From Alternaria dauci (taxonomy: Eukaryota; Ascomycota; Dothideomycetes; Pleosporales; Pleosporaceae): a DNA stretch of 64,000 bases. The notes under the pieces were generated by a model. That model saw only the letters and a list, made by a program, of their open reading frames with translations. It did not search any database and was not told the origin of the DNA. Position numbers and translations under genes: made by a program. This document shows positions 18,740 through 19,232 of this stretch, one piece after another. Position 1 is the first letter of the stretch. Each line of letters begins with the position of its first letter. The DNA is taken from assembly GCF_042100115.1 (NCBI RefSeq), contig NC_091280.1:992001-1056000 (forward strand), written 5' to 3'.

Positions 18740-19102
18740 TTGTCTACCACCCGTGAGCAGCCTTACGGGAATGAGATCATAGACCAGATAGCGTGCTTTT
18801 AATGAAACAGTAGTACTTCAGGCTATTTGTTATCGTGTGTTGTGGTAGTTCATTGTCATATGTTTTTCCACCAAGTACTTTTCGCGTTGTGCCCCACCAT
18901 GCCGAAGTGGTCCGACAACCCCACCACAAGTGCAAATTCTTTCACGTTGCACAGCTTCTACGTATGCCGATGACAAGATCGAAATTCTGGTTGCTGCATT
19001 GAAGATGATGTAAACAATCATGAATATATTTAGATTAAAAGAAAAAGTCCTCATCAATCAAACAACGGCCTAATGGCCCAATGGCAAGGCGCTTGACTAC
19101 GA

Positions 19103-19112
19103 TTCGTTCGAT
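19103..19112 (+). other. Canonical tRNA intron (10 nt) in the anticodon loop
   Basis: It lies one base 3' of anticodon ACG, the fixed position for nuclear tRNA introns. The internal CGT can pair with the anticodon to form the bulge-helix-bulge used by the tRNA splicing endonuclease. Its ends could shift by one base. Confidence 0.75.
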
Positions 19113-19130
19113 ATCAAGAGATTCCAGGTT

Positions 19131-19186
19131 GTAAGTAACACTCAACAGATCAGTCCGTTCGAACACAGACACTGACGATCATCCAG
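19131..19186 (+). other. 56-bp GT-AG intron-like insert in the tRNA T-loop
   Basis: It starts GTAAGT, has a CACTGACG branch-like site, and ends ATCCAG 11 nt after that site. All three signals and the length match the spliceosomal introns of neighbouring genes. Clean removal restores T-loop TTCGACC and B box GGTTCGACCCC. The centre holds the palindrome GTTCGAAC. Confidence 0.75.
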
Positions 19187-19227
19187 CGACCCCTGGTTAG
19201 GTCATAATACGTTGTACTCGATATTTC

Positions 19228-19232
19228 TTTTT
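19228..19232 (+). terminator. Probable RNA polymerase III terminator
   Basis: A T5 run lies 24 bp after the tRNA discriminator base, within the usual distance for Pol III termination. Confidence 0.6.

Follow-up and report, generated by a model that had tools for sequence, protein, structure and literature searches.

A tRNA-Arg(ACG) gene family of Alternaria dauci with a putative spliceosomal intron in the T-loop

The window, by which we mean the whole 64,000-nt stretch of Alternaria dauci DNA that was analysed, holds a nuclear tRNA-Arg(ACG) gene at 19067-19204 that reads with two interruptions, an intron in the anticodon loop and a second insert in the T-loop. The locus raises the question of which machinery would remove the second insert and whether a gene interrupted in this way can still provide a tRNA. 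In a 2026 review, tRNA splicing by endonuclease and ligase is described as independent of the spliceosome and as a pathway separate from mRNA splicing, in which the spliceosome acts on Pol II transcripts (PMC13149111). Searches of the open-licence PubMed Central literature turned up no description of a tRNA gene that carries a spliceosomal intron.

The features of the locus are collected in Table 1. The insert lies between T-loop positions 55 and 56, is 56 nt long in the window copy and has GT-AG ends, reading GTAAGTA...TTCGAA...CTGAC...CCAG. The first-pass annotation had named a tRNA-Arg(ACG) with a 10-nt anticodon-loop intron and an insert at 19131-19186 that starts with GTAAGT, carries a branch-like site and ends in CCAG; the coordinates proved exact to the base and each of the signals was found again. 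ARAGORN called no tRNA on the whole window, and an Rfam search of the window gave no family reaching its gathering score. Removal of the insert had been said to restore the T-loop TTCGACC, and ARAGORN does then call tRNA-Arg(ACG). Across the five copies of the gene found in this genome, ARAGORN called tRNA-Arg(ACG) in all five without the insert and in none with it. Because the genes go undetected as they stand, similar genes elsewhere may escape annotation; for tRNAscan-SE 2.0, a search for non-canonical introns is described for archaea (PMC8450103).

Table 1. Features of the tRNA-Arg(ACG) locus, in window coordinates
Feature	Position	Strand	Basis or remark
TATA-like upstream element (ATATATTTAG)	19024..19033	+	shared with other nuclear tRNA genes
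CATCA upstream element	19052..19056	+	CATC[ACG] shared with other nuclear tRNA genes
Exon part 1: 5' acceptor, D arm, anticodon arm, 5' T stem, T-loop TT	19067..19130	+	anticodon-loop intron included
A box, tRNA positions 8-19, TGGCCCAATGGC	19074..19085	+	sequence; A-box position as given in PMC3978253
Anticodon ACG	19099..19101	+	sequence and ARAGORN
Canonical anticodon-loop tRNA intron, 10 nt	19103..19112	+	sequence
GT-AG T-loop insert, 56 nt, putative U2-type spliceosomal intron	19131..19186	+	present in five of five copies found
5' splice site GTAAGTA	19131-19137	+	kept in five of five copies
TTCGAA, possible relocated B box	19158..19163	+	invariant in five inserts; B-box score 8.5 in window copy
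Branch-site-like CTGAC, branch A at 19175	19172..19176	+	CTAAC in the other four copies
3' splice site CAG	19184..19186	+	kept in five of five copies
Exon part 2: remaining T-loop, 3' T stem, 3' acceptor, discriminator A	19187..19204	+	sequence, ARAGORN, stem pairs
T5 run, likely Pol III terminator	19228..19232	+	sequence

The window copy is one of a family. A search of the 34.9-Mb genome (10 contigs) with the DNA of the locus found five dispersed tRNA-Arg(ACG) loci, one on contig C9 (the window), three on C3 and one on C5, and in all five the insert interrupts the T-loop at the identical base. The first-pass annotation had held that several intact tRNA-Arg(ACG) genes elsewhere, together with transcripts that all keep the insert, would speak for an inert pseudogene; within the limits of the searches run, such genes did not turn up, and the further copies are all interrupted. 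An uninterrupted Arg(ACG) T-arm, with up to three mismatches allowed, had no nuclear match in the genome. The pattern of an ACG anticodon with an intact B box matched once, versus 13 times in a backward-read control, at a locus (L098) where ARAGORN gave no tRNA. Arg(ACG) was likewise absent among 42 other nuclear tRNA genes and 15 further ones, a catalogue that is incomplete, the covariance search having scored 63 of 931 candidates. A wider tRNA pattern, GGTTCGANTCC, gave 47 rows versus 58 in its control; after exclusion of 13 rows already seen and three evenly spaced rows from the C7 end, 31 were examined, and 15 of them carried an ARAGORN tRNA. A looser pattern for T-loop inserts in other tRNAs returned 20 rows versus 21 in the backward-read control. 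Five of these were the Arg(ACG) genes and the other 15 loci had no ARAGORN tRNA, which is no clean negative because ARAGORN misses T-loop-interrupted genes too.

A tRNA-Arg(ACG) of mitochondrial type sits in a cluster of mitochondrial-type tRNAs near the end of nuclear contig C3 (G000:C3 about 3344000-3400000 of 3445196; L071-L073). The stretch carries the same tRNA-Asn at both ends, on opposite strands, and is either a mitochondrial genome joined in assembly or a large nuclear insertion.

The five nuclear copies all come from one assembly and are mutually related, and the T-loop insert would have been gained once, before the genes duplicated. Patterns for related sequences had no matches in collections described as viral, bacterial and archaeal contigs, which says little on relatives. 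An introner-like element had also been proposed as the source of the insert. Introner-like elements are GT-AG introns gained at new sites, and the putative intron here would be another such gain; unlike such elements, however, the insert has no similar sequence beyond the five tRNA genes, which alone were matched by the locus DNA search. We therefore found no support for an introner or other mobile element, in a search that could miss short diverged copies.

The five inserts are 54, 55, 55, 56 and 57 nt long. Four short signals, all in the sense orientation of the tRNA gene, are invariant among them: GTAAGTA (seven of seven columns), TTCGAA (six of six), CTRAC (four of five, the fifth being R) and CAG (three of three). 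The rest of the insert, in contrast, has a mean pairwise identity of 41% over 33 aligned columns, two of them invariant, the alignment omitting columns of variable length, up to two in the middle and one close to the 3' end. Flanking sequence, 40 nt to each side of the genes, is approximately 33% identical in an ungapped comparison of the five copies. Spacing is kept as well, with 11-12 nt from the branch A to the end of the insert and 17 nt from TTCGA to the branch A in all five inserts. From base composition, the chance of GTAAGT, YAG and a CTRAC at 11-12 nt in one random insert is ~2.6e-8, although the five copies are not independent draws because they are related by descent; the invariant signals set against the diverged remainder are the better measure. 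Each copy has a GTRNGT 5' splice site and, suitably spaced from a YAG 3' end, a CTRAC, the marks of a U2-type intron. This pattern of invariant signals in a diverged remainder is consistent with, and supports, the spliceosomal-type intron suggested in the first-pass annotation.

We compared the inserts with putative mRNA introns of the same genome. A crude motif scan for mRNA introns over 168 kb showed no excess (110 matches versus 131 in the reversed control), nor did GTAAGT with CTRAC in the same scan (12 versus 11). When the scan was restricted to lengths of 45-75 and a branch distance of at most 20, matches exceeded those in the control, at 50 versus 29, as did those with GTAAGT, at 12 versus 2, counts that include the window's own tRNA insert. 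In a frame test, which kept introns whose reading frame is open only when they are removed, GTRNGT starts gave 17 rows versus 4 in the reversed control and any GT start gave 176 versus 123; the 17 rows represent 15 distinct 5' splice sites, while the control rows were left unmerged. The frame test demanded a CTRAY branch motif, so distance and length alone are informative. The branch-to-end distance was 9-12 nt in 12 of the 17 putative mRNA introns and the length 48-60 nt in 13 of 17, and the tRNA inserts fall within both ranges. TTCGAA occurred in none of the 15 distinct putative mRNA introns.

The exon parts were then considered as a tRNA. Joining at the GT-AG junction gives TTCGACC in every copy but C3c, where the product is TTCGATC; in C3c the anticodon-loop intron is 9 nt by ARAGORN. 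The cloverleaf pairs are standard at 20 of 20 positions in each copy (100 of 100 pair cells). Three pairs are altered in C3c, with 7-66 changed from A-U to C-G, 6-67 from A-U to G-U and 49-65 from C-G to G-C, and each of them joins exon part 1 with exon part 2. Changes on both sides, and thus compensatory, occurred at two pairs, both in the single copy C3c, and were equalled in 21 of 500 shuffles. Stem pairing therefore appears to be kept by selection across the insert, although the shuffle control is modest with five related copies.

Upstream of the genes, a TATA-like stretch was present in five of five Arg(ACG) copies, 34 of 42 other nuclear tRNA genes and 629 of 5000 random window stretches, and CATC[ACG] in five of five, 28 of 42 and 635 of 5000, respectively. 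Both elements together were found in five of five Arg(ACG) copies, 24 of 42 other genes and 110 of 5000 random stretches, a contrast with random that is partly by choice because both motifs were written after seeing the upstream list. A TATA-like stretch with CATCA or CATCG within 60 nt upstream is common to many nuclear tRNA genes of this genome (L008-L067). Downstream, a run of at least four T was found within 60 nt in four of the five copies. The C5 copy (G000:C5 about 646600-646860; L003, L038) is followed 31 nt downstream on the same strand by a tRNA-Gly(GCC) gene that has its own T run. There is no T run between the two genes, so that they may share a transcript.

The first-pass annotation had left two outcomes, in which the tRNA is either dead or dependent on two separate splicing systems. 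Evidence from the genome points to the second, since all five copies found are interrupted, the splice signals are invariant, compensatory changes are seen in C3c and the upstream elements are present in five of five copies. We consider it very probable that these genes are a working nuclear tRNA-Arg(ACG) family in which T-loop 55/56 carries an ordinary U2-type spliceosomal intron, transcribed by Pol III and processed by both the spliceosome and the tRNA endonuclease. Pol III would transcribe the gene with the aid of the A box, of both upstream elements (TATA-like and CATCA) and perhaps of TTCGAA as an intronic B box. The spliceosome would excise the 54-57-nt intron at GTAAGTA...CTRAC...CAG, joining TT to CGACC (CGATC in C3c), and the tRNA endonuclease and ligase would excise the short anticodon intron. 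Transcription by Pol III, spliceosomal removal and the B-box role of TTCGAA are what we infer from these features.

Among the alternatives, the one that survives best, though still unlikely, is that the tRNA endonuclease removes the insert as a non-canonical tRNA intron by way of a fold resembling a bulge-helix-bulge, and that the GT-AG appearance is incidental. A 2014 review describes real non-canonical introns in nucleomorphs and Cyanidioschyzon merolae, including introns in the T-arm and sometimes alongside a canonical intron, as in the location seen here (PMC4090602). In the consensus fold the T stem does gain four pairs, with two bulged nucleotides on the 3' side, and the stem so extended reaches over the GU of the 5' splice site. 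However, that one bulge has no second bulge and no inner helix to accompany it, and the additional pairs never vary and so offer no covariation. Cutting at the bulge would not, in our reading, restore C56, whereas the GT-AG junction restores the T-loop. Because the fold lacks a second bulge and an inner helix and C56 is not restored, action of the endonuclease alone is unlikely; it also fails to account for GTAAGTA, CTRAC and CAG being invariant and spaced as in mRNA introns. The introns of nucleomorphs, C. merolae and archaea are tied to cutting of the bulge-helix-bulge type, a motif that is not seen here, where GT, branch and AG are conserved instead. The unspliced RNA of the window copy shows no excess of stability over shuffles (z -0.34), and its minimum-energy fold is without the T stem.

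The five genes could instead be dead or dying pseudogenes, with a different tRNA decoding CGU and CGC. According to PMC4090602, T-arm insertions in eukaryotic tRNA genes mostly affect a single member among many synonymous genes and are presumed to mark pseudogenes, but here the insertion is present in five of five synonymous genes found, and an intact copy was not found in the searches run. The exon parts, splice signals, upstream elements and T runs (the last in four of five copies) are intact while neighbouring sequence has diverged to about a third identity, and the compensatory changes in C3c also speak against decay. We leave this reading a slim chance because the tRNA catalogue is incomplete. 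Still more improbable is that the mature RNA keeps the insert and is either a tRNA whose T-loop is giant or no tRNA at all; some transcripts may retain it, but a retained insert would need no conserved splice signals, and we know of no precedent for a T-loop above 60 nt. An assembly artefact is barely credible, since the mitochondrial-type stretch near the end of C3 hints at imperfect contig joins but the five loci, on three contigs, have different inserts and different flanks with the insertion at the identical base.

The insert lies within a promoter element. The native B box is broken by it, and the interrupted T-arm scores -9.3 on a matrix built from 22 native boxes that were chosen by core motif; native boxes have a minimum score of 4.0 and a median of 15.7. 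The intronic TTCGAA scores 8.5, 3.0, 1.5, 6.5 and 0.0 in the five copies, values matched by 12, 219, 527, 70 and 725 of 2000 shuffled introns, respectively, and in three of the five it resembles a B box poorly. In C. merolae, tRNA genes whose A and B boxes are broken are presumed to depend on upstream TATA-like sequences (PMC3978253), and by analogy the upstream TATA-like element could be a second way in which the Arg(ACG) genes are transcribed. The anticodon intron holds TTCGATATC, which is B-box-like (5.0 to 7.6) in four of five copies and lost in C3c; we set it aside as a B box, as pairing with the anticodon explains it better. For TTCGAA as a relocated B box the match is weak, and we give this role about an even chance because its core is invariant but its flanks mismatch. 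Somewhat below even is our confidence in the fuller proposal, in which maturation of the entire, indispensable Arg(ACG) isoacceptor family depends obligatorily on spliceosome and endonuclease and the intron that breaks the B box supplies TTCGAA as its replacement. Were this so, a promoter element would be transcribed and then spliced away, and translation of CGC and CGU would be directly dependent on the spliceosome.

An intronic B box has a counterpart in Schizosaccharomyces pombe, where the B box of the U6 gene lies within its intron. That U6 snRNA is a Pol III small RNA with an mRNA-type intron removed by the spliceosome (PMC10484740), and among Pol III genes it is the precedent that comes closest. 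The Arg(ACG) genes would resemble it in combining a Pol III small RNA with a GT-AG intron and in the intronic B box proposed for TTCGAA; they differ in that the host is a tRNA with an additional intron of the tRNA type. The U6 gene of the Alternaria genome itself gave two full-length matches without an intron and two weaker partial ones. Introns of Cryptococcus SRP RNA were considered as a further precedent and dropped, PMC4605306 stating that there are none. With canonical eukaryotic tRNA introns the family shares the intron in its anticodon loop (10 nt in the window copy), as do other tRNA genes here. The insert differs from these in its T-loop position, its length of 54-57 nt and its splice-site and branch signals in place of pairing with the anticodon.

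Arginine is encoded most often by CGC in ten long window frames, at 131 of 437 arginine codons. Of 5938 codons, 70 were CGT, 131 CGC, 56 CGA, 46 CGG, 68 AGA and 66 AGG, in frames taken from stop to stop that include some non-coding ends. By established decoding rules, CGC needs the ACG tRNA. If the insert is a spliceosomal intron in a working gene, decoding of common arginine codons would be tied to spliceosome activity, and a Pol III tRNA precursor that is short, folded and free of a cap or a poly(A) tail could serve as a spliceosome substrate. The family would also provide a natural experiment on how introns arise and survive within a promoter element.

Several minor observations were made. 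At the end of C7, a B-box-like 11-mer is found three times at intervals of 7504-7505 nt (G000:C7 2741389, 2748893 and 2756398), probably in tandem repeat units such as rDNA. At L030 1501-1592, ARAGORN gives a tRNA-Asn(GTT) with an odd intron, a stretch that reads better by eye as tRNA-Arg(TCT) with an anticodon-loop intron. Elsewhere in the window, the frame of a RING-type protein has just 50-53% identity in its named Alternaria matches, and an aldehyde dehydrogenase shares 96% identity with a protein of Alternaria alternata and 87-88% with those of Decorospora, Pyrenophora and Bipolaris.
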